Positions 6,221 to 30,546 of a DNA stretch of 30,546 nucleotides are shown piece after piece. The notes under the pieces are model-generated. The model was not told the origin of the DNA. It worked only from the letters and a program-made list of their open reading frames with translations, and searched no databases. The position numbers and the translations under genes were made by a program. This stretch comes from a virus. Location of the stretch: positions 1 to 30,546 of the IMG/VR virus record IMGVR_UViG_3300023174_006079; one strand, given 5' to 3'. Each line of letters starts with the position of its first letter. The first letter of the stretch is position 1.

Positions 6221-6886
6221 ATGCGCAAGCATAACACAACAAAAGGCGTCATGCCAATCGTACTTTTTATTATAGTAGCAAGCTCAACAGGAGCGTTTGC
6301 GGCAGATAAGCCAACAACGTTTGCAACAGTAGACGCTGGAATTAAAGCGCTAAAGGTTGCACCTGATGTTCGTGAAGGATACGCGCGCTCACAATTTAAG
6401 CACTGGTCAGATCTCGATAAGAACGGCTGCAATACGCGCAACGACGTGATTATTCACGAGGCACTTGTAAAGCCTAAGATTGACACAGGATGTAAGATCG
6501 TCAAAGACACAGGTAAGTGGTACTCTGCTTATGACGGATTGACCGTTACAAATTTTTCTGGTCTAGACGTTGATCATATGGTTCCTCTGGCCGAAGCTTG
6601 GGACTCAGGCGCCAATAAGTGGGACGCGGCAAAGCGTGAACAATACGCAAACGACATGGGCGATGAGAACGCGTTGATTGCTGTCACCGCAGCGACTAAC
6701 CGCTCTAAGTCAGATCAGGATCCAGCAGAATGGCTTCCTGCAAAGGACGTTTGCACATACATTAAGAATTGGGTTCATGTAAAACTACGTTGGTCACTTA
6801 CAGTTGATGACAAAGAGCTCAAGGCAATTAAGGACGCAAACGCAAAGTGCCCTAAAACTAAGATCTCTGTTGTTATAGTAAAATAA
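6221..6886 (+). CDS. Secreted HNH nuclease (DUF1524/GmrSD-C type)
   Basis: A 221-residue protein starting at ATG 6221, with AGGA six bases upstream; the frame extends further up, but that part has no ribosome site and overlaps the primase gene. Residues 1-27 are a Sec signal peptide: basic start, hydrophobic core PIVLFIIVASSTG, cleavage after AFA. The mature part has the DUF1524 HNH signature DVDHMVPLAEAW (Asp118-His119) and later NALIAVTAATNRSKSDQDP with Asn160. Cys70, Cys91 and Cys178 could form disulfides, fitting an exported enzyme. The family includes exported actinobacterial nucleases and the C-terminal nuclease of the GmrSD restriction enzymes. In a phage it might degrade extracellular or released DNA; that role is inferred. 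Confidence 0.85.
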   Translation: MRKHNTTKGVMPIVLFIIVASSTGAFAADKPTTFATVDAGIKALKVAPDVREGYARSQFKHWSDLDKNGCNTRNDVIIHEALVKPKIDTGCKIVKDTGKWYSAYDGLTVTNFSGLDVDHMVPLAEAWDSGANKWDAAKREQYANDMGDENALIAVTAATNRSKSDQDPAEWLPAKDVCTYIKNWVHVKLRWSLTVDDKELKAIKDANAKCPKTKISVVIVK

Positions 6887-6892
6887 TAGATT

Positions 6893-7678
6893 ATGTCTGC
6901 TGTATACGCTCTCGTGTCATCTGGTGAACCAGACATAGTTCGCTATGTCGGAAGAACTAAACACGCTTCCCCAGAAAAAAGACTAGCTTCACATAGAGGC
7001 CATATGAAAGCTGGAGGTACAACTCACGTCTATAATTGGATGAGAAGCGTCTACGCCTCTGGGCATCAAGTCCTAGCGCATGTTATAGAGTCAGATTTGA
7101 CATGGGAAGAAGCTGGCGAGCGTGAAATGCACTATATTAAGTTTTATCGAGATAGCGGATATAACTTAACAAATATATCTTTAGGTGGCGACGGTGGGGC
7201 GGCTATGTCTCAAGAGACAAAGGACCTAATGAGCAGAAACAGAAAAGGAAAATCTCCTAGCCCGCAGGCACACGCTGCAGCTAAACTTGCCAATATTGGC
7301 CGTGCAAAAACTGAAGAAGAAAAAGCAAAGGTCAGTGCTGCAAATAAAGGAAGAGTGAAAACACCAGAGGTTCGCAAAAGATTGTCAGAAATAGCAAAAG
7401 CAAGACCAAGAAGACCGCACACGCAAGAAACAAAAGATAAAATAAGTAAAGCAAAAATGGGCAATGTTATATCAAAAGAAGCACGAGAAAAGATATCTAA
7501 AGCTAGCAGAGATAGAATAGTCACGTTACAGACGCGCGAGAAGCTTTCTAAAGCTGGCAAAAATCGTAAACATTCTCAAGAGACTAGAGAAAAAATGAGT
7601 AGGTCATCAACAGCAGCTCATTTGCATAGAAAGAACTTAAAGTTAAATTCATTAAAACAAGAAAAAGAGGACATATAA
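6893..7678 (+). CDS. GIY-YIG homing endonuclease with NUMOD3 repeats
   Basis: A 261-residue, strongly basic protein. Residues 1-100 are a GIY-YIG nuclease domain: VYALVSS at 4-10, RYVGRT at 17-22, KRLASHR with the conserved arginine, and a WEEAGERE helix with the glutamate. From about residue 102 there are seven tandem NUMOD3-like DNA-binding motifs of the form Q/E-ETR/KEKMSKA...K/R. This is the standard layout of a free-standing phage homing endonuclease. The gene is A-rich and has no recognisable ribosome site, unlike its neighbours, which fits mobility. Its stop overlaps the start of the endolysin gene as TAATG, so the endolysin would now be translated behind it. Confidence 0.92.
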   Translation: MSAVYALVSSGEPDIVRYVGRTKHASPEKRLASHRGHMKAGGTTHVYNWMRSVYASGHQVLAHVIESDLTWEEAGEREMHYIKFYRDSGYNLTNISLGGDGGAAMSQETKDLMSRNRKGKSPSPQAHAAAKLANIGRAKTEEEKAKVSAANKGRVKTPEVRKRLSEIAKARPRRPHTQETKDKISKAKMGNVISKEAREKISKASRDRIVTLQTREKLSKAGKNRKHSQETREKMSRSSTAAHLHRKNLKLNSLKQEKEDI

Positions 7679-8484
7679 TGGCTGGCACTTTTCCAAAACC
7701 TATAGCGAATCCGGCCCCACAAGGGACAGCCGCGCGATTAGTTCAAATAGCTGAGTCGTATGTAGGCTATGCAGAAGGACCGAAAGATAATGAAACTATA
7801 ATGGGCGCCTTTACGAAGGCTAACTTTCTACCTTGGTGTGGGTCTTTTTGCATGTTTGTTGCAAATGCTGCTGGCGTAAAGATTCCTAACACTGTTTCAA
7901 CAGTTGCAGGCGCAGATGCATTCAAGAAGCAAAAGCGCTGGTACGACAATGACGGAGTAAACACTCCAGAGCCTGGCGACATCGTTTATTTTGACTTCCC
8001 AGGAGACGGTGTAGACCGCATCTCGCACGTTGGAATTATCGTAAAGGATAACAAGGACGGCAGCATGACATGCCTAGAGGGTAACACCTCTGGCATTCCT
8101 AAGGGTGACCAGCGCAACGGCGGCGAAGTATGCAAAAAGATTCGCGCGTACAAGAAGAGCGCTAAGCAAGGATTGCCTATGGCAGTTGTTGGTTGGGGTC
8201 GTCCAGACTACGAAGGCTCAGCTGCTAACCCAGTTGCTCCTAAGGTAGTAAAGGAAAAAGACACGACAGGCAAGGTTTACCCTGGCGAGACAATTGATCC
8301 AGGCGAGGCAGGGATTCACGTTAAGACTGTTCAGGCAGCTCTTGGTATTAAGCCAGCCGACGGTCAATTCGGTCCAGTCACAAAGAAAGCTGTGATTGCG
8401 CACCAGAAGGCTAAGAAGCTACCTGTCACCGGTATCGTTGACGCAAAAACTTGGAAATCTATTACAGGATTGCCTGTAAAGTAG
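7678..8484 (+). CDS. Endolysin: CHAP peptidase plus peptidoglycan-binding domain
   Basis: A 268-residue, two-domain lysin without a signal peptide. Residues about 18-175 form a CHAP-type cysteine peptidase/amidase, with WCGSFCMF carrying Cys54 as likely nucleophile, ISHVGII with His117, and CLEGNTS with Glu134 and Asn136. After a short linker (about 180-200), residues 205-268 form a PG_binding_1 domain: GIHVKTVQAALG, DGQFGPVTKKAVIAHQ, VTGIVDAKTWKSI. It should cleave host peptidoglycan at lysis. Export therefore needs a holin; the small membrane protein at 26619-26915 is the best candidate. The ATG overlaps the stop of the homing endonuclease. A strong terminator follows. Confidence 0.93.
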   Translation: MAGTFPKPIANPAPQGTAARLVQIAESYVGYAEGPKDNETIMGAFTKANFLPWCGSFCMFVANAAGVKIPNTVSTVAGADAFKKQKRWYDNDGVNTPEPGDIVYFDFPGDGVDRISHVGIIVKDNKDGSMTCLEGNTSGIPKGDQRNGGEVCKKIRAYKKSAKQGLPMAVVGWGRPDYEGSAANPVAPKVVKEKDTTGKVYPGETIDPGEAGIHVKTVQAALGIKPADGQFGPVTKKAVIAHQKAKKLPVTGIVDAKTWKSITGLPVK

Positions 8485-8601: not shown

Positions 8602-8607
8602 TTGTCT

Positions 8608-9081
8608 ATGAGTAACGCAACTAAACGTAAGTGCGGAACGTGCACCAAATGCTGTGAAGGTTTTATTGTCGGACAGGCGCATGGGAAGGCTTTTTATCCT
8701 GGAAAACCTTGTCATTTTATAAGCATCGGTGATGGGTGCTCTTCTTATGTCGATAGGCCAGATGACCCTTGCAAGACATATAACTGTCTATGGTTAGAAG
8801 ACCCAGACCTTCCTGAGTGGATGAAGCCAGATAAAGTTAACGCAATTATTGATATGCGAATTGTAAAAGGAATCCCATACATTCATGTACTAGAGGCTGG
8901 TGCCGTTTTAAGTTCCAAGGTTCTTTCTTGGGTAATTCAATACGCACTATCTAACAATATGAACGTGTGTTGGGAAGTAGAACGTGGAAAAAACCTTTTG
9001 GGAACTCAAGAGTTTTTACAAGCAATGCAAAACAGAGTGGATGCCCCAGAGCCTAACTATTTGCCTCTTACGACGAAGTAG
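8608..9081 (+). CDS. CxxCxxCC zinc/iron-chelating protein (YkgJ-like)
   Basis: A 157-residue protein. The N-terminal half carries the YkgJ/UPF0153 (CxxCxxCC) pattern: Cys9, Cys12, Cys15, Cys16, then Cys35, Cys44 in CSSYVDRPDD, Cys55 and Cys60 in CKTYNCLW. The family is thought to bind zinc or an Fe-S cluster; its biochemical role is not established. The C-terminal half has no cysteine cluster and no recognised domain. It has its own leaderless promoter after the terminator. Its last 14 bases overlap the end of the convergent chaperone-like gene on the other strand. It could instead be a phage modulator of host metal or redox state; this is open. Confidence 0.8.
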   Translation: MSNATKRKCGTCTKCCEGFIVGQAHGKAFYPGKPCHFISIGDGCSSYVDRPDDPCKTYNCLWLEDPDLPEWMKPDKVNAIIDMRIVKGIPYIHVLEAGAVLSSKVLSWVIQYALSNNMNVCWEVERGKNLLGTQEFLQAMQNRVDAPEPNYLPLTTK

Positions 9082-9385
9082 CCTTCCATTCTTTCTTAAT
9101 GGAATCCCATTGAAACATAGTTCCTTCTCTTGGGTATGGAGTATTTCGTTGCTCTAGTTCATCTGAAGTTAGATTTCTTACAGCCCATGTTCTCTTCCAA
9201 ACTCCATTTACTTGAGTTGGAAATTCCTCAAAGCAAATTTCTAAATCAGAAGTAGCGGGTTGTACTGTATCTTCTACTTCCACCCAATTTTCTGGTAAAG
9301 AAGTTCCTTTTGTCCAACCAAGAAGTTGCAAATCACCATCGTGACGAGGATACTCATTTGTTTCTATGTTTAGGTAATAAGCCAT
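9068..9385 (-). CDS. Small tail-fibre-associated protein, likely assembly chaperone
   Basis: A 105-residue protein starting at ATG 9385 with AAGGA just upstream, overlapping the stop of the fibre gene. Its layout is typical of small proteins encoded directly behind phage fibre genes: a start describing a sequence tag (YYLNIETNEYPRHDGD), a LLGW...LPENWVEV segment, then VWKRTWAVRNLTSDELEQRN and a C-terminal MFQWDSIKKEWK. Such proteins are often tail-fibre assembly chaperones. Position eight bases after the beta-propeller fibre, same strand, supports this. The family name is not certain. Confidence 0.6.
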   Translation of the reverse strand: MAYYLNIETNEYPRHDGDLQLLGWTKGTSLPENWVEVEDTVQPATSDLEICFEEFPTQVNGVWKRTWAVRNLTSDELEQRNTPYPREGTMFQWDSIKKEWKATSS

Positions 9386-9393
9386 TTTTATCC

Positions 9394-11043
9394 TTAGATT
9401 GATGTTGTAGCAACGGACAATAATCCTGCTTCAATTGTTGAGTCGCCAGTGTTTGTAGTAATTGAGCGAGCACTACTCTGTGTCAAACTTTCACTAGCAT
9501 CGGTCATAGAACCAGAAGTTTCTGTGTAACTTGCTGTTGAATATACGTAAGATAAACCACCTACCGTATATGTTCCAGTTTTAGAACCGTCTAAAGGAAC
9601 CTTAATAAGGTAAGCATTATTAATGCTTCCATTTGTGTAGTTTCCTGTAATTATAAGAGATGTGCCAGAAACAGTGACATCGTTAACAGATGGAGATTGT
9701 GAGCTAGCAATAAATCGTCTTTGCCATTGAACAGTTCCCGAAGAATCCCATTTTATAATCATGACAGCATAAGGAGAAGTATTGGACTCTCCACCGACTC
9801 CGTAGACGTTTCCAGAAGAGTCAACCGCTAATCTATAGCCTGCTGCGCTTGAAGATGCATCGTAGATTCGTCGTTGCCACTGTAAAGAACCAGAAGAATT
9901 ATGTTTAGCAACATGAAATTGATATGTACCATTTTGATTAGAGGAACCAATTGAATGCACATTTTCAGAAGAATCAATTGCTACATCATAAACATAATGA
10001 TTTTTACTGTAATCGTAAAACTTTCTTGCCCAAGTAATAGTTCCAGAGTTGTTTATTTTTACTGTGTTCCAAGTACTGTGATAAACATAGTTACCTTTTG
10101 AAATAAGTGTCTGCGTTGGATAGTGACCAATGCAATGAGAGTTTCCAGAAGAGTCAGTGTCCATGGCAGTAAAGTAGTTGCCGCTTCCTTGGTCTCCACT
10201 AAATGCATAATAATAAGTCCATGCATGTGTGCCAGCGCTACTTATTTTTGTCAAACAATAGTCTTGGTCTTGAGTTCCAGTGTCTGTCATTCCACCAGAA
10301 AAGTATAGGTTATTAGAACTATCAGCATCTAGCGAGTAAAGATTAAACTGCTGAGGGGTTCCGCCACCATCTGTTGGTCCATTATAAAGTTTTTGCCAAA
10401 CTAAGTTTCCAGAAGAGTCTAACTTTGTTATTAAAGAGTGATTATAGTTGTAATTTTCATTTATAGGCATTTCTGTTGCCGCAATATATACATTTAAAGA
10501 AGAGTCTACCCAGACCGCTTTAGAGGAGTTGGTACGTCTATTGGGACCGCTTGCATAGTGTGCAATTTGCTTTTGCCAGATAAGGGCTCCATCGGCAGAG
10601 TGTTTTGTTACATAACCATACTTTTGACTGCTATCTGAACCATAACGATGTCCAACGGTGTATATATTTCCAGAAGAATCCGTATTTATATTTATGGAAG
10701 TCATATCGTAAGTGTATGAAAGACGAGCCATGAAATCTGGAGCAACAGGTGTAGTACTCAATGAAGCCGAGCTTGTTGCTGTTTCACCTGTACTTGAAGT
10801 TGCACGGACGGTGAACGTATACGCTGTTCCGTTAGTTAAACCTGTGACAGTAATAGGTGAGGTGCCTGTTGCGGTAATGTTCCCTGGGCTTGAGATAGCG
10901 GTGTACGTTACCGAGCCTTTGCCAATGTAACTAGACGCGGTAAATGTAACTGTTGCCTGTGCGGTTCCTGCGGTAGCTGAAACACTTGTAGGAGCTGTTG
11001 GCGTTCCGCCAGAGCGTGATGATTGTGTTCCTAGAATAGGCAT
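9394..11043 (-). CDS. Fibre/adhesin: MPILG anchor, FN3 domain, seven-bladed beta-propeller
   Basis: A 549-residue protein. Residues 1-15 are the MPILG anchor shared with seven other genes here, and about 16-103 form a fibronectin-III-like domain (APTSVSATAG, GSVTYTAISSPG, TVTGLTNGTAYTF). The rest is seven SBBP-like beta-propeller repeats. Each has a DSSGNxYxxG strand (such as DSSGNIYTVG, DSSNNLYFSGG, DSSGNVYGVGG) followed by a KxDSSGxxxWQR strand; the last repeat is degenerate. Seven repeats fit one closed propeller. A short C-terminal segment (TASYTETSGSMTDASESL) follows. It probably binds a surface sugar or protein of the host. It has a leaderless promoter (TAGAAT at 11055-11050), sits 14 bases behind the serine recombinase and is followed by a putative chaperone. 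Confidence 0.85.
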   Translation of the reverse strand: MPILGTQSSRSGGTPTAPTSVSATAGTAQATVTFTASSYIGKGSVTYTAISSPGNITATGTSPITVTGLTNGTAYTFTVRATSSTGETATSSASLSTTPVAPDFMARLSYTYDMTSININTDSSGNIYTVGHRYGSDSSQKYGYVTKHSADGALIWQKQIAHYASGPNRRTNSSKAVWVDSSLNVYIAATEMPINENYNYNHSLITKLDSSGNLVWQKLYNGPTDGGGTPQQFNLYSLDADSSNNLYFSGGMTDTGTQDQDYCLTKISSAGTHAWTYYYAFSGDQGSGNYFTAMDTDSSGNSHCIGHYPTQTLISKGNYVYHSTWNTVKINNSGTITWARKFYDYSKNHYVYDVAIDSSENVHSIGSSNQNGTYQFHVAKHNSSGSLQWQRRIYDASSSAAGYRLAVDSSGNVYGVGGESNTSPYAVMIIKWDSSGTVQWQRRFIASSQSPSVNDVTVSGTSLIITGNYTNGSINNAYLIKVPLDGSKTGTYTVGGLSYVYSTASYTETSGSMTDASESLTQSSARSITTNTGDSTIEAGLLSVATTSI

Positions 11044-11060
11044 TTAGTTATTCTATCCTA
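10997..11060 (-). repeat. 64-base inverted repeat, copy 1
   Basis: Read on the minus strand, the 64 bases from 11060 to 10997 match 22245-22308 on the plus strand at 61 positions by eye. The match begins exactly at the upstream gene's TAG stop, covers the leaderless promoter (25 identical bases) and continues into the MPILG and FN3 coding region. Beyond it the FN3 regions are still similar, at lower identity. Confidence 0.85.
11050..11055 (-). promoter_or_regulatory. Leaderless promoter -10 (TAGAAT)
   Basis: GATAGAAT ends six bases before the ATG at 11043. It lies directly after the recombinase stop codon, inside the 64-base inverted repeat. Confidence 0.65.
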
Positions 11061-11729
11061 CTTTGATTCTTCTGATTGTTGATCTAATACATATTTAATA
11101 CTAGAAGCAGACCATTTCCCGCCGTAGGCAGCTGGTATACTCTCCGCGTTGAGCTTTCTGGCTATACCGTTCATCGATTCGCCAGCTTCTCTTTCAGTGT
11201 ATATACGATTTAATACTGCTTCCGGTATTCTTTTCTTAGGGCCGAGATCTACACCCCAAACTTTTCCTTGGGAGCGTCTGTCAGAGTGAACGTCCTTCTG
11301 GCGTTCGGAGATGATAGATCTTTCCATCTCTGCAAGAGCAGACATAATAGTAACAACAAACCGAGATTGATATGAAGAAGTATCTAAATTAAGATCAAGA
11401 AGAACTAGTCGCCAGCCATATTTTTGCGAGTGGTCAATGATGGATAGGAAGTCCTGCGTCGAGCGAGATAGGCGGTCTAGGCGGGTAACAAACAAAGCGT
11501 CTGCTTCTCCAGAAGCTAAACGATTAAGCGTCTTCTTTAGCGCTGGTCTTCCAGATATAGACTTGCCAGATCTACCTTCTTCTCTAACAAGCTCTGTTAA
11601 AGTGTAACCTGCAAGCTCGGCTGCCTGCCTTAATGCGCGTTCTTGTACATCTAAAGAAACACCATCTTGCACCTGCATAGATGTAGACACTCTAGCGTAA
11701 AGAAGAGCTACTTTACCATCAAGTTCCAT
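11058..11729 (-). CDS. Small serine recombinase (resolvase/invertase family)
   Basis: A 223-residue protein. The N-terminal domain (about 7-140) is a serine recombinase catalytic domain: ALLYARVSTSMQVQDG with Ser15 as nucleophile and Arg13, GRSGKSISGRPALKKTLNRL, and the arginine-rich DRLSRSTQDF. A long helix with ALAEMERSIISERQ follows. The C-terminal 70 residues (GPKKRIPEAVLNRIY...GIARKLNAESIP...WSASSIKYVL) resemble the start of the recombinase domain of large serine integrases, with an HTH. At 223 residues it is invertase-sized, not a phage integrase. It is leaderless (TATGAT at 11741-11736). It lies between two fibre-type genes and ends at an inverted repeat shared with another fibre gene, so a role in fibre variation is plausible but unproven. 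Confidence 0.88.
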   Translation of the reverse strand: MELDGKVALLYARVSTSMQVQDGVSLDVQERALRQAAELAGYTLTELVREEGRSGKSISGRPALKKTLNRLASGEADALFVTRLDRLSRSTQDFLSIIDHSQKYGWRLVLLDLNLDTSSYQSRFVVTIMSALAEMERSIISERQKDVHSDRRSQGKVWGVDLGPKKRIPEAVLNRIYTEREAGESMNGIARKLNAESIPAAYGGKWSASSIKYVLDQQSEESK

Positions 11730-11917: not shown

Positions 11918-14406
<2,489 letters not shown>

Positions 14407-14469
14407 ATTACCCCTACCCTAAAAACTAGTTAGGTACAATCTATCACGTCTCAGCTACTTCTTAGTAGG

Positions 14470-14494
14470 ACTTCTTGGTGCCTAAACAAGAAGT
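14470..14494. other. Hairpin between divergent genes
   Basis: ACTTCTTG (14470-14477) pairs perfectly with CAAGAAGT (14487-14494) around nine bases, then AT-rich sequence. It sits between the divergent starts at 14406 and 14560 and could be an operator or a weak terminator. Confidence 0.35.
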
Positions 14495-14527
14495 AAAATA
14501 ATTTAAGATTCAACTAACTAAAAGCTA

Positions 14528-14535
14528 TCACCGCA
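14528..14535 (+). repeat. TCACCGCA site, 12 bases before a -10 box
   Basis: An intergenic copy in the context CTATCACCGCAGGTTA. It ends 12 bases before TACTAT (14548-14553), the same spacing as the copy at 19489-19496. Confidence 0.8.
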
Positions 14536-14547
14536 GGTTATTTGAGA

Positions 14548-14553
14548 TACTAT
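14548..14553 (+). promoter_or_regulatory. Leaderless promoter -10 (TACTAT)
   Basis: GATACTAT ends six bases before ATG 14560. There is no Shine-Dalgarno. Confidence 0.65.
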
Positions 14554-14559
14554 TAGACA

Positions 14560-14826
14560 ATGGATTATCCTGAGGACCCAGAGTATGCTGACGATGATGT
14601 TCTACAACAGTACCTTGATGAAGAGGGTCTAGCCTTAGTACCTGTTGAATTCATGCGTGAATTGATGCTTCTTATGGAGGATCACATCGTCAACGTATGC
14701 GAAGTAGATAGAGACGCACTCAACGAGATAATGATACGCATGGAGGAGCTTCTAGGGGAAGAGGGTCTTATGGACCTATCCATGGAGGACATCATCGGCT
14801 GGGTAAATACGTTAAAGGACGCCTAG
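14560..14826 (+). CDS. Small acidic protein, unknown
   Basis: An 88-residue, very acidic, largely helical protein (MDYPEDPEYADDD at the start, then VEFMRELMLLMEDHI and IRMEELLGEEGLMDLSMEDI). There is no signal peptide or membrane segment. No family is recognised. Its net negative charge would suit a DNA mimic or protein-binding inhibitor, but nothing specific supports that. It is leaderless with a TCACCGCA site upstream. It is followed within ten bases by the promoter of the RNA candidate. Confidence 0.7.
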   Translation: MDYPEDPEYADDDVLQQYLDEEGLALVPVEFMRELMLLMEDHIVNVCEVDRDALNEIMIRMEELLGEEGLMDLSMEDIIGWVNTLKDA

Positions 14827-14835
14827 CCTTCCTGT

Positions 14836-14841
14836 TATAAT
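14836..14841 (+). promoter_or_regulatory. -10 box (TATAAT) for the RNA candidate
   Basis: A consensus TATAAT, with TTAAAG (14812-14817) 18 bases upstream as a possible -35. It would start transcription near 14848, directly before the hairpin-rich non-coding stretch. Confidence 0.55.
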
Positions 14842-14847
14842 TTAACT

Positions 14848-15078
14848 ATCGCCACTGGCCTGGAGCCGCTACTATTAACTTGTCACGACGAAAGTGAAGT
14901 CTAGCTAATCCCGCTACTGCGAATCGTCCTGGACATGACGTACAACTGTCATCCACTCCAACTTCAGAGTTGAGTGTCTAGCACTGGCTGGGTAGACATC
15001 GAGTGGGTAGTTGATAAGCGGGCTACCTTTAGGGTAGTATACAAAGCGCTGCCAGTGCTAGACTCGATTCTTTTTTAT
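14848..15078 (+). ncRNA. Hairpin-rich structured RNA candidate, unknown class
   Basis: There is no plausible coding frame here, yet the stretch is dense with complementary segments between a TATAAT and a T-run (15071-15076). The main stem is a perfect 13-bp pairing of GTCTAGCACTGGC (14976-14988) with GCCAGTGCTAGAC (15051-15063). Others are CACT-c-CAACT-TCAG-AGTTG-AGTG (14954-14976), ATGAC with GTCAT (14935-14939 and 14948-14952), TCAC with GTGA (14883-14897) and CTACC with GGTAG (15023-15037). Upstream copies of CACTGGC (14853-14859) and GTCTAGC (14899-14905) could pair with the same 3' strand, allowing alternative folds. CCGCTACT occurs twice (14866 and 14911). The next gene has its own leaderless promoter, so this is probably a separate transcript, not a leader. 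It is not recognised as tmRNA, RNase P RNA or tRNA. Confidence 0.65.
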
Positions 15079-15087
15079 TATTTATGA

Positions 15088-15093
15088 TACAGT
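15088..15093 (+). promoter_or_regulatory. Leaderless promoter -10 (TACAGT)
   Basis: GATACAGT ends six bases before ATG 15100, just after the T-run ending the RNA candidate. Confidence 0.65.
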
Positions 15094-15099
15094 TCATTC

Positions 15100-15450
15100 A
15101 TGACACCGGAGATCTTTGTTCGCCCTTGGGGCTTCTACGTAATTTTGCACACTGAGCAAAAGGTGCAGGTTAAACGAATACATGTTGAAAACGGAAGCCG
15201 TCTCAGCAAGCAATCTCACAAACACCGCGCAGAGCATTGGTACATCACGCAAGGATATGCAGAGGTAGAGCTATTTGATCAAATACTTCATCTTGGCCCA
15301 GGAGACTACGTGTCAATCGGAGTTGGAGAAGTTCACCGCGTAAAAGCCGAAGGCGAAGGCGACCTAGTCTTTATCGAGATTCAAACAGGTGAGTATCTTG
15401 GAGAAGATGACATCATTCGGTATGAAGATGACTTTGGACGTGTTGAGTAA
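15100..15450 (+). CDS. Cupin of the phosphomannose isomerase type II / ManC C-terminal family
   Basis: A 116-residue single cupin that matches the C-terminal isomerase half of bifunctional mannose-1-phosphate guanylyltransferase/phosphomannose isomerase: FVRPWGFY at 6-13, QVKRIHVENGSRLSKQSHKH, AEHWYITQG, and the typical end IEIQTGEYLGEDDIIRYEDDFGR. Metal ligands are His40, His42, Glu45 and His79. The nucleotidyltransferase half is absent. It may interconvert hexose phosphates or bind a sugar nucleotide. It is leaderless and its stop overlaps the next ATG as TAATG, tying it to the methyltransferase. Acting on phage or host glycans is a reasonable inference given the fibre genes around it. Confidence 0.85.
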   Translation: MTPEIFVRPWGFYVILHTEQKVQVKRIHVENGSRLSKQSHKHRAEHWYITQGYAEVELFDQILHLGPGDYVSIGVGEVHRVKAEGEGDLVFIEIQTGEYLGEDDIIRYEDDFGRVE

Positions 15451-16025
15451 TGGAGCAAGAACTTCCTACCTGGTTTAATCATGTTAAGCCAAACTTTGAA
15501 AACTACCTAACGTTTCCTAATGAAAACATCATACCTGTCCCGCTAAACGTATTGCAGATCGGCGCGTATAAGGGTGACACAACACAGTGGCTACTAGACA
15601 ATAAAAACATCAACAGGATAGTAGACGTTGACACCTGGGAAGGCTCAATCGAGCACCAAGGAACGTTTGACTTCAACCAGGTTGAGAGAGTCTACAACGA
15701 AAGATTCACCGCAGTTGAGAAGGTTGAGAAGCGCAAGGGTACGAGCGATAGATACTTTGCGACGCGCCCTGAAGGTGAAACATTCAACGTTATCTATATA
15801 GACGGAGATCACACCGCGCTACAGACGGCGATTGACTCGCTTAACGCGTGGAGGATCCTAGAGGTCGGCGGCATCATGATATTTGATGACTACGACTGGC
15901 ACATGTATCAAGGAACACCCTTGCACCCTAAGGACGGTATTGACTGCGTCCTAAGACTGTTTAGAGGGCGCTACAACCTTATCGTTACGAACTATCAGGT
16001 CTGGATTCGTAAGACGGCGGAGTAG
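15450..16025 (+). CDS. Class I SAM-dependent methyltransferase (Methyltransf_24-like)
   Basis: A 191-residue protein with a Rossmann methyltransferase core: LQIGAYKGDTTQWLL (about 35-49) as the SAM-binding loop, VDVDTWEGS near 58-66, VIYIDGDHTALQT near 113-125 and GGIMIFDDYDWH near 139-150. This set is typical of the family often found in glycan and surface-polymer gene clusters. The substrate is not visible. Coupling to the cupin gene (TAATG) suggests a shared sugar substrate. Confidence 0.8.
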   Translation: MEQELPTWFNHVKPNFENYLTFPNENIIPVPLNVLQIGAYKGDTTQWLLDNKNINRIVDVDTWEGSIEHQGTFDFNQVERVYNERFTAVEKVEKRKGTSDRYFATRPEGETFNVIYIDGDHTALQTAIDSLNAWRILEVGGIMIFDDYDWHMYQGTPLHPKDGIDCVLRLFRGRYNLIVTNYQVWIRKTAE

Positions 16026-16042
16026 ACTTTTAAGTTGTAAGA

Positions 16043-16048
16043 TAGAAT
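16043..16048 (+). promoter_or_regulatory. Leaderless promoter -10 (TAGAAT)
   Basis: GATAGAAT ends six bases before ATG 16055. Confidence 0.65.
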
Positions 16049-16054
16049 AAGAAC

Positions 16055-17116
16055 ATGCCTATCATCGGATCATCAGCAGGAGCTGCAAAGGGTGCGCCAG
16101 GTGCGCCTACCATCGGAACTGCAACAGACGGTGGTTCAGGCGCAATCTCTGTCACATTTACTGCCCCTGGCTTTTCTAAGCTACCAATTACTTCATACAC
16201 AGTAACTAGCTCATCAGGTGCAACTGCATCAGGTGCTAGCTCACCAATAGTCGTCACCGAGACAGTTGCTGGCACATACACATACAGCGTCACTGCTTCT
16301 CATGCTAACGGCAGCTCTTCATCATCTGGATCTTCTAACAGCGTTACTGTTTCATTCTCATATGCCTTATCTCAGACGTTTAACTCATCTGGTAACTTTA
16401 CAGTTCCAGCTGGTGCAACTAAGATGGCCGTTATTGCATCTGGCGGTGGTGGTAATGGTAATGGCGCTGGTGGTTCTTATGGAACAAATGGCGGTAATGG
16501 AGGGGCTGGAAGTTACTTTGGTGGATGGTATGACTACGCAGTAACTCCTGGAACTCAATATAACGTGACTGTAGGCGGATCAGGCGGTGGTGCGTCTTCC
16601 TTTGGCAATTTAATAAACTCTGTCAGCCCTGGCGGTTTTACAACAAACATAAACACAAACCTTGTTACTGCTGCGGGAGGTAACGGTGGTAATGGCGGTT
16701 CTGGGACAAATCCTCCAAATAGTTACCCTTATAACATTTACAATGGAAGGCCTGGAAATGCTGGAAATGCTTCAGGCGCTGCAATTACTGCTTTTAGTTC
16801 TGTGCCTGGATTGCCTTCTAGTTTTAGATACGCGGGTGGCGGTGGAGGCGGTGGTTCTGGTGGAGTATCTAATGATGAATTTGATGGCGGTGCCAATTCA
16901 TCAGGCGGTGGCGGTGGTGGAGCAGGTGCGCCGTACGGCGGAAACGGCGGCAATGGCGCTGGTGGAACGGCTAACGGACAACAAGGTGGAATTGCAAATG
17001 GACCTGGTGCAGGCGGCGGTGGTGGCGGAGGAGCCTCTTCATTTTGGTTAGGAATTAACGTTGGTGGTAATGGAAGAGCCGGCAGTGGTGGACAAGTTTT
17101 AGTTTATACAAAGTAA
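16055..17116 (+). CDS. Glycine-rich fibre/adhesin with MPIIG anchor and FN3-like domain
   Basis: A 353-residue member of the MPILG family. Residues 1-16 are the anchor MPIIGSSAGAAKGAPG; about 17-108 form an FN3-like domain that differs from most relatives and matches the partial gene at 30410. A conserved junction ([24 protein letters not shown]) leads into about 220 residues of glycine-rich sequence with GGNGG and GGGGGG runs, ending GGQVLVYTK. Glycine-rich tips of this kind are compared with the polyglycine-II sandwich of T-even adhesins such as S16 gp38; that comparison is from knowledge. Likely a receptor-binding fibre tip. It is leaderless. Confidence 0.82.
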   Translation: MPIIGSSAGAAKGAPGAPTIGTATDGGSGAISVTFTAPGFSKLPITSYTVTSSSGATASGASSPIVVTETVAGTYTYSVTASHANGSSSSSGSSNSVTVSFSYALSQTFNSSGNFTVPAGATKMAVIASGGGGNGNGAGGSYGTNGGNGGAGSYFGGWYDYAVTPGTQYNVTVGGSGGGASSFGNLINSVSPGGFTTNINTNLVTAAGGNGGNGGSGTNPPNSYPYNIYNGRPGNAGNASGAAITAFSSVPGLPSSFRYAGGGGGGGSGGVSNDEFDGGANSSGGGGGGAGAPYGGNGGNGAGGTANGQQGGIANGPGAGGGGGGGASSFWLGINVGGNGRAGSGGQVLVYTK

Positions 17117-25905: not shown

Positions 25906-26208
25906 ATGACAAAACATAACCCGCAGCTTCGTAACCTGCGCCCGGTCTATGACGAGTGGGCTTGGCAGGAGGAGTCTAACTGTCGTGGCGAAGACTCAGA
26001 GGTATTCTTTTTAGATCCACAGGCGCGTGGTAAAAACAAGCGTGATAAAGAACGCGAAGCTAAAAAGATATGTAAAGGTTGTCCTGTAGTTCAACAATGC
26101 TTAGATCATGCACTTGCAATCCCAGAGTTCTTTGGTGTCTGGGGAGGAATGACAGCTGATGAACGAAACTTGATTCTTCGCAAGCAAGGACTAAGAATAA
26201 TTAAGTAA
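25906..26208 (+). CDS. WhiB-family transcriptional regulator, first copy
   Basis: A 100-residue WhiB-like protein. The four cluster-binding cysteines are Cys26, Cys56, Cys59 and Cys65 (NCRG, then CKGCPVVQQC), followed by the GVWGG turn at 77-81 and a basic tail (NLILRKQGLRIIK). WhiB proteins occur only in actinobacteria and their phages; they bind a 4Fe-4S cluster and act with the primary sigma factor. Phage copies can alter host transcription and superinfection, as for TM4 WhiB. It is leaderless. Confidence 0.93.
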   Translation: MTKHNPQLRNLRPVYDEWAWQEESNCRGEDSEVFFLDPQARGKNKRDKEREAKKICKGCPVVQQCLDHALAIPEFFGVWGGMTADERNLILRKQGLRIIK

Positions 26209-26264: not shown

Positions 26265-26552
26265 ATGACACTAGACATACAACTATCTAGAAACTATCCA
26301 GTCTTTAAAGATCACGGAGTACCGATCTGCGCAACAACAGATCCTGAGATATTCTTTCCAGAAAAAGGAGCAAAGGGTCAATCTCTGTATATCGTCAACG
26401 CAGCGCGAAGAATATGTAACGCGTGTCCATATAAGAAGCCCTGCCTCGAGTGGGCAGTCGTACACGACGAGATGGGAATCTGGGGCGGGACAACCCAGAA
26501 AGAGCGACGTGTTCACCGCAGAAAGTTAAAAGTAACGAAGAGCAATAAGTGA
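26265..26552 (+). CDS. WhiB-family transcriptional regulator, second copy
   Basis: A 95-residue WhiB-like protein with Cys22, Cys51, Cys54 and Cys60 (ICNACPYKKPC), GIWGG at 71-75, then TTQKERRVHRRKLKV as the basic DNA-contacting tail. It is clearly different from the first copy outside the motifs, so this is not a recent duplication. The tail is more basic, suggesting different targets. It is leaderless; a TCACCGCA site falls at its 3' end. Confidence 0.93.
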   Translation: MTLDIQLSRNYPVFKDHGVPICATTDPEIFFPEKGAKGQSLYIVNAARRICNACPYKKPCLEWAVVHDEMGIWGGTTQKERRVHRRKLKVTKSNK

Positions 26553-30379: not shown

Positions 30380-30409
30380 GAGTGTAAGATTAACTAAACA
30401 AGGAGAAAA

Positions 30410-30546
30410 ATGCCAATTCTAGGAAGTAGTGCAGGAGCTGCAAAGGGTGCACCTGGTGTGCCTACTGTAGGAGCTGCTACATCTCTTACGTCTACTACTG
30501 CCAGTGTGACGTTCACAGCGCCTTCATTTAGTAAGTTGCCTATTAC
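30410..30546 (+). CDS. MPILG-family fibre/adhesin, start only
   Basis: The first 45 codons of an eighth family member, cut by the window edge; AAGGAG lies just before the ATG. Anchor [16 protein letters not shown] and the start of an FN3-like domain (SVTFTAPSFSKLPIT). It matches the gene at 16055 more than its tandem neighbours, including about 20 identical bases in the anchor. The tip is unknown. Confidence 0.8.
   Translation, partial: MPILGSSAGAAKGAPGVPTVGAATSLTSTTASVTFTAPSFSKLPI

Follow-up and report, generated by a model that had tools for sequence, protein, structure and literature searches.

A fibre-like protein of a putative freshwater actinobacterial phage with a predicted SBBP-type beta-propeller tip and a tip-linked small gene

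Does the open reading frame at 9394-11043 of a viral contig encode a phage fibre that ends in a seven-bladed SBBP-type beta-propeller, and what would such a propeller do at that position? The window, that is, the whole stretch of DNA analysed, is the complete IMG/VR virus record IMGVR_UViG_3300023174_006079 of 30,546 bases, which is itself a fragment. The reading frame and its parts are as follows.

9394-11043, minus strand: fibre gene, 549 aa; FN3 head, predicted seven-bladed propeller tip and C-terminal tail (ORF, Pfam, PHROG, AlphaFold2)
10735-11043, minus strand: N-terminal MPILG peptide and FN3 head, residues 1-103 (Pfam fn3 at 17-95)
9595-10734, minus strand: predicted seven-bladed SBBP-type beta-propeller, residues 104-483 (28 strands, CylK and virginiamycin B lyase fold matches, Pfam SBBP)
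9397-9594, minus strand: C-terminal tail, residues 484-549, Ser/Thr-rich, with DGSxTGTYT at its start (alignment of relatives, AlphaFold2)

An FN3-like domain followed by DSSGN/WQR-type repeats had been predicted from the sequence, and both Pfam and a shuffle control confirmed this layout. The fn3 match (residues 17-95) had an E-value of 1.1e-5 and 25.9 bits (cut-off 25). SBBP (PF06739) matched with an E-value of 2.6e-8 and 34.1 bits, above the curated cut-off of 20.5, under which the single repeats fall when scored separately (17.3-19.4). Residues 104-549 hold seven D[ST]S[GLNE]N pentads along with six W[QTA][KRY] triplets; 10,000 residue shuffles yielded means of 0.02 pentads and 0.26 triplets, with maxima of no more than 2 and 4, respectively. 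The seven repeats counted in the original prediction are thus real as pentads, but they mark only six blades (122, 180, 241, 297, 357, and 408). Blade 2 is marked twice, by an extra pentad at 209, and the degenerate blade seven (about 449-483) contains neither a pentad nor a triplet.

The structure of the fibre protein was predicted with AlphaFold2, the input being the protein aligned to ten relatives that share 29-38% identity. The model (mean pLDDT 79.8, pTM 0.77) displays 28 strands over residues 104-483, that is, seven times four. By our reading of the strand list, the strand at 104-109 would complete the last blade and close the ring. VIA-align placed residues 103-548 of the model on seven-bladed CylK (7ron) with Z 41.3 and rmsd 2.8 over 358 residues. 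CylK was also the first match of the model in Foldseek (E 1.1e-19) and was found by profile search (4.6e-30); virginiamycin B lyase was aligned with Z 31.6. The C-terminal domain of CylK is described by its authors as a seven-bladed propeller (PMC8916777, excerpt). The predicted structure is therefore a closed-looking ring, judged by its 28 strands and the CylK alignment across the whole range, and agrees with the seven blades expected for this protein. Among predicted viral structures (BFVD), the first match was a 'Beta-propeller repeat protein [uncultured Caudovirales phage]' (E 3.4e-24), followed by cyanophage structural proteins. The DGSxTGTYT motif that opens the C-terminal tail is conserved after the propeller in the alignment with relatives. 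The tail, folded as a monomer in the model, has short predicted strands and is a possible trimerisation or chaperone-binding end.

Several of the solved structures matched are enzymes: CylK, virginiamycin B lyase, polysaccharide lyases of PL24 and PL25, and glycoside hydrolases. Propellers are also among the depolymerase folds that DepoScope considers (PMC11326577, excerpt). This raises the alternative of an enzymatic tip, a depolymerase or lyase that would cut a host glycan and not merely bind it. CylK shares with the window protein SBBP-type seven blades, found by both profile and fold, but CylK is enzymatic and carries a Ca-binding domain at its N-terminus, whereas the window propeller lies behind an FN3 head in a phage fibre. 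Catalysis by CylK needs Arg105 from its other domain and Tyr473 (PMC8916777, excerpt), and the N-terminal Ca-binding domain is absent here. Moreover, the fold matches of the fibre model are spread over many unrelated functions, as with any propeller. We consider a catalytic tip unlikely.

Homology searches placed the protein among virion components. It matched PHROG 8510, virion structural protein (1.6e-13). A tblastn search against named phages gave relatives annotated as baseplate wedge subunit and virion structural protein (cyanophages) and, in Nitratiruptor phages, as phage tail fiber protein. None of these reached 60% identity; the Nitratiruptor matches, in NrS-2 and NrS-3, were weak (24-27%). 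At the nucleotide level, megablast of window positions 6001-30546 gave no match among named phages. Propeller relatives were found with profiles among the viral loci collected: 24 ORFs were reduced to 13 distinct proteins with complete ends and sufficient downstream sequence, the window protein included. A scan of viral contigs for the propeller only, with a single sequence, gave four pattern matches and no relative. The FN3 head was present in 12 of the 13 proteins, the protein from L298 showing none. The FN3-propeller join that had been proposed as a search target in other phages does recur, namely in 11 other distinct proteins and in 16 IMG/VR contigs besides the window. The N-termini of the joined proteins are of four kinds: MPILG/MRILG; YPGG/YKGG followed by a GxWT motif; MSPILTG; and that of L025. 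FN3-propeller units therefore sit behind several anchors.

Homologues occur in phage contigs and among proteins that bear virion or fibre annotations. No capsid or tail-tube gene was identified in the window fragment, and the virion location is thus assigned by homology only. A different origin could be considered, with the protein being a host-derived surface protein carried as cargo, or a capsid decoration, rather than a tail fibre. Bacterial proteins often carry FN3 domains of this type: of 592 stretches of genome contigs that matched the pattern, 492 encode relatives of the query (80 were kept), and PHROG 8510 is filed under head and packaging. However, none of 79 kept genome loci matched across the whole propeller, most of them matching over the FN3 head only. 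The head is also common to glycine-rich genes that match tail-fibre PHROGs, and the linkage to a putative chaperone gene described below fits a fibre. Cargo or decoration appears distinctly improbable to us.

The propeller had further been regarded as an unusual fold for a phage. This view was not supported, since propellers have already been described in phage receptor-binding proteins, namely phi11 gp45 (five blades), PRD1 P2, and phiKZ gp131C (excerpts of PMC6115969 and PMC4876445), and other phages, too, have propellers annotated or predicted to be of the SBBP type. The propeller fold is already known in phage adhesion and is itself not new. Our literature search, within the terms and the library used, listed no paper describing a phage fibre whose tip is an SBBP propeller. 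The likeness to phi11 gp45, PRD1 P2, and phiKZ gp131C is one of working principle, a propeller domain in a phage adhesion protein. In phi11 gp45, the domain layout is different and the propeller has five blades (GlcNAc cavity, trimer), as compared to the seven predicted here. None of the three proteins occurred among the sequence and fold matches listed, and we do not claim the window fibre as a member of their group.

The FN3 head links the fibre gene to others of the same window. Six further complete genes, at 16055, 19652, 20830, 22262, 28327, and 29419, open with MPI(L/I)G. The glycine-rich domain PF21722 scored above the cut-off in 19652, 22262, and 29419 and below it in 16055, in agreement with the expectation that related FN3-like heads carry glycine-rich tips elsewhere; gene 29419 gave no fn3 match. 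Counting a seventh extra gene, which starts at 30410 and is cut by the contig end (repeat 30407-30481), the 30 kb hold at least seven more MPI(L/I)G fibre-type genes, most of them with glycine-rich tips. The head shares 91% protein and 75% DNA identity with that of gene 22262, and 92% protein but 69% DNA identity with that of a gene in another contig (L010:5001-6086). In the latter comparison, codons differ at 64 of 95 identical positions, which is expected if the protein contacts of the head are constrained. A recent head swap was rejected as an explanation, since the heads alike in protein differ in most codons.

The surroundings of the fibre gene define a slot with the following borders.

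7678-8484, plus strand: endolysin, CHAP and peptidoglycan binding; conserved left border of the slot (Pfam CHAP, PG_binding_1; PHROG endolysin)
11058-11729, minus strand: small serine recombinase of the resolvase/invertase type, 223 aa, ending 14 bp upstream of the fibre gene (Pfam Resolvase 8.1e-36, Recombinase 4.6e-7)
11918-14053, minus strand: collagen-like fibre protein, upstream of the recombinase and past the right border of the slot (Pfam Collagen 3.1e-59; PHROG tail fiber protein 2e-89)

Two nuclease genes lie between the primase and the endolysin: one of the GmrSD_C/HNH type (6224-6886) and a GIY-YIG/NUMOD3 homing-type endonuclease (6893-7678). GIY-YIG is present in only some relatives.

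Corresponding slots were gathered as relatives of the primase and endolysin, 42 of which had an endolysin more than 70% identical. Removal of 8 repeat contigs and of 2 loci without the recombinase on the contig (L096, L105) left 32, or 33 with the window. Where the primase is on the contig, it is 83-99% identical to that of the window. A fibre gene occupies the slot in 31 of the 33 loci (none in L106 and L112). By fold or composition, these 31 tips, which include near copies such as L100/L101 and L183/L184 and hence are not independent, are of at least five kinds and comprise 15 glycine-rich tips, 4 SBBP propellers (window, L100, L101, L177), 4 propellers of a second type with STDGxTWT-type repeats (L103, L104, L180, L182), 3 Lcl_C-like tips under the Pfam cut-off, 4 short proteins of 210-217 aa, and 1 other (L102). 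Classes were counted in place of the 20 clusters obtained automatically, in which low-complexity masking had split the identical glycine-rich tips of L183 and L184. In forced alignment, the non-SBBP tips share 21-33% with the window tip, that is, they are unrelated to it. A model of the second propeller from L103 (pLDDT 75.7) retrieved propellers in a fold search, YCF48 being the first (E 9.8e-12). Two propellers without evident sequence kinship therefore use one slot. The slots with the second propeller (L104:12851-13684, L180, L182) extend over 5.7-7 kb and also hold ORFs that we take to be glycosyltransferase-like, kinase-like, and sulfotransferase-like. This variety suggests that the SBBP tip with its small helper gene is one of several interchangeable tips, which probably recognise different host surfaces.

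The G+C content of the tip and the small gene is 38%, as compared to 49.5% in the FN3 head, and the 1660-nt stretch of lowest G+C in the window is located at the tip and small gene (0.380 vs 0.433 outside the slot). Low G+C as proof of tip transfer was set aside, since third-position G+C is near equal (0.27 vs 0.32) and amino-acid make-up accounts for much of the difference.

The helper gene directly follows the fibre gene.

9068-9385, minus strand: small gene, 105 aa, following the fibre gene after 8 bp; its family tracks the propeller and is a putative chaperone of fibre assembly (family-tip linkage)

Its end is overlapped by a gene on the plus strand (8602-9081) for a cysteine-rich protein of 159 aa with no Pfam match, a relative of which (54%) lies on the other strand in L095.

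Every ORF of the viral loci was searched with a profile trained on three small proteins, those of the window, L101, and L177. Of the 94 distinct fibres that had enough sequence behind them, 13 were SBBP fibres, and 9 of these were directly followed by a family member, as compared to 2 of the 81 others (Fisher 3.4e-8). With the three training fibres removed, the counts were 6 of 10 and 2 of 81 (8.1e-6). The test ignores relatedness; the likeness among these fibres is only about 30-38%, and their anchors differ. Four of the 13 SBBP fibres (L012, L025, L031, L298) lack the small gene. A three-way count over 101 fibres gave 9 of 13 SBBP, none of 8 second-propeller, and 2 of 80 other fibres. In the reverse control, a profile of the second propeller's own small gene matched behind 5 of 8 such fibres, three of these matches being training members of the profile, and behind none of the 13 SBBP and 80 other fibres.

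One of the 12 family members, that of L006, is fused to a Phage_tail_APC domain (PF16778, 2.3e-19). The chaperone of phage Pam3 (gp25 type) combines a variable N-terminal domain, which binds the fibre tip, with a conserved C-terminal domain responsible for assembly (PMC9608196, excerpt). The L006 protein, with its tip-tracking N-terminus and Phage_tail_APC, matches this pattern, and the position of the small gene directly after the fibre gene is alike as well. The window's 105-aa protein differs from the Phage_tail_APC and Pam3 chaperones in having no detectable APC domain. It gave no Pfam match, a weak PHROG match (phrog_4998, 0.003) to a family of unknown function, and no tblastn match in named phages; a sequence search at E 0.1 gave no solved structure for the family. 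By its linkage to the tip, the protein may be called chaperone-like. Tip linkage, reverse control, and L006 fusion are what would be seen for a tip-specific assembly chaperone, and the flanking gene thus lends the support to a fibre role that was originally ascribed to it.

Taken with the slot, these data make it probable, in our view, that 9394-11043 encodes a fibre-like virion protein with an exchangeable receptor-binding propeller tip and a cognate chaperone, in a phage of freshwater actinobacteria. The N-terminal peptide and FN3 would form a conserved head attached to the virion, and the propeller would lie at the distal end and bind a ligand on the cell surface, probably a glycan. As the cognate assembly chaperone, the 105-aa protein would recognise the propeller end. 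Tip and chaperone gene would form an exchangeable unit, the slots of related phages offering glycine-rich, lectin-like, or second-propeller tips, each tending to bring its own small gene. Exchange may proceed by recombination across the conserved slot borders. A bolder version, which we hold to be rather doubtful, is a plug-in slot in which whole tip folds, including two unrelated propellers, are swapped with the tip-specific chaperone as a compatibility key, the bordering recombinase possibly aiding exchange or inversion.

The recombinase could also be given a direct role, that of switching the tip by inverting the fibre-chaperone segment. Gin and Cin invert such segments in Mu and P1. The recombinase matches PHROG 125, DNA invertase, and adjoins the slot in 33 of 33 loci, all of which were selected for having a recombinase and an endolysin. 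In L104, the module of fibre and chaperone genes (13801-16515) runs in the opposite direction to its counterparts in L180 and L182 with both flanks co-linear, and L260 has the same reversed order. However, likeness between the inverted copies is only about 65-77%, which makes the inversion an old one. Clear crossover sites were not found: the best inverted pair in L104, a degenerate match of 31 nt, lies inside a terminator-like hairpin, and no convincing inverted sites flank the fibre gene in the window. Distant relatives and Actinomycetia phage DSL-LC01 (OQ999401, Dishui Lake, 129 kb) carry the same recombinase beside the primase without any fibre, and it looks like a core resolvase. In DSL-LC01, the primase is 78% identical over the matched 67% and is adjoined by the recombinase, with no fibre between them, unlike in the window. 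Tip switching by inversion is very unlikely in our estimate; the recombinase probably belongs to the core genes. Recombinase types about 30% apart have similar last codons and a similar spacer, and this conserved end may serve as a border for tip exchange in the favoured reading.

The lake phage DSL-LC01, assigned to Actinomycetia, is the nearest named relative by primase, followed by actinobacterial phages. Two small ORFs (25906-26208 and 26265-26552) resemble what we take to be WhiB proteins. The window probably belongs to a large phage of freshwater actinobacteria. To our knowledge, host recognition by phages of these abundant bacteria is almost unstudied. With one head, comparable tips, and a small gene that predicts the tip, both tip binding and chaperone control of assembly become directly testable; it is the link between tip and small gene that deserves such tests. 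The occurrence of two unrelated propellers in one position, presumably for the same job, adds to this interest. In Nanopelagicales phage isolates, a variable island is reported to extend over a tail fibre and collagen-like proteins (PMC10202952, excerpt), which agrees with a variable host-recognition region.

A short motif is located between the recombinase and the fibre gene.

11049-11057, minus strand: GATAGAATA, ending 5 nt before the fibre ATG and repeated at other fibre genes

It is present in most slot loci. Within the window, it also precedes the start codons of genes 16055, 22262, and 28327 by a few bases, without a ribosome-binding site. Since these three other fibre genes share it, the motif is better read as a promoter element, a possible -10 element of a leaderless fibre transcript. 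Genes 20830 and 29419, the second genes of tandem pairs, have the ribosome-binding site AAGGAGA in its place.
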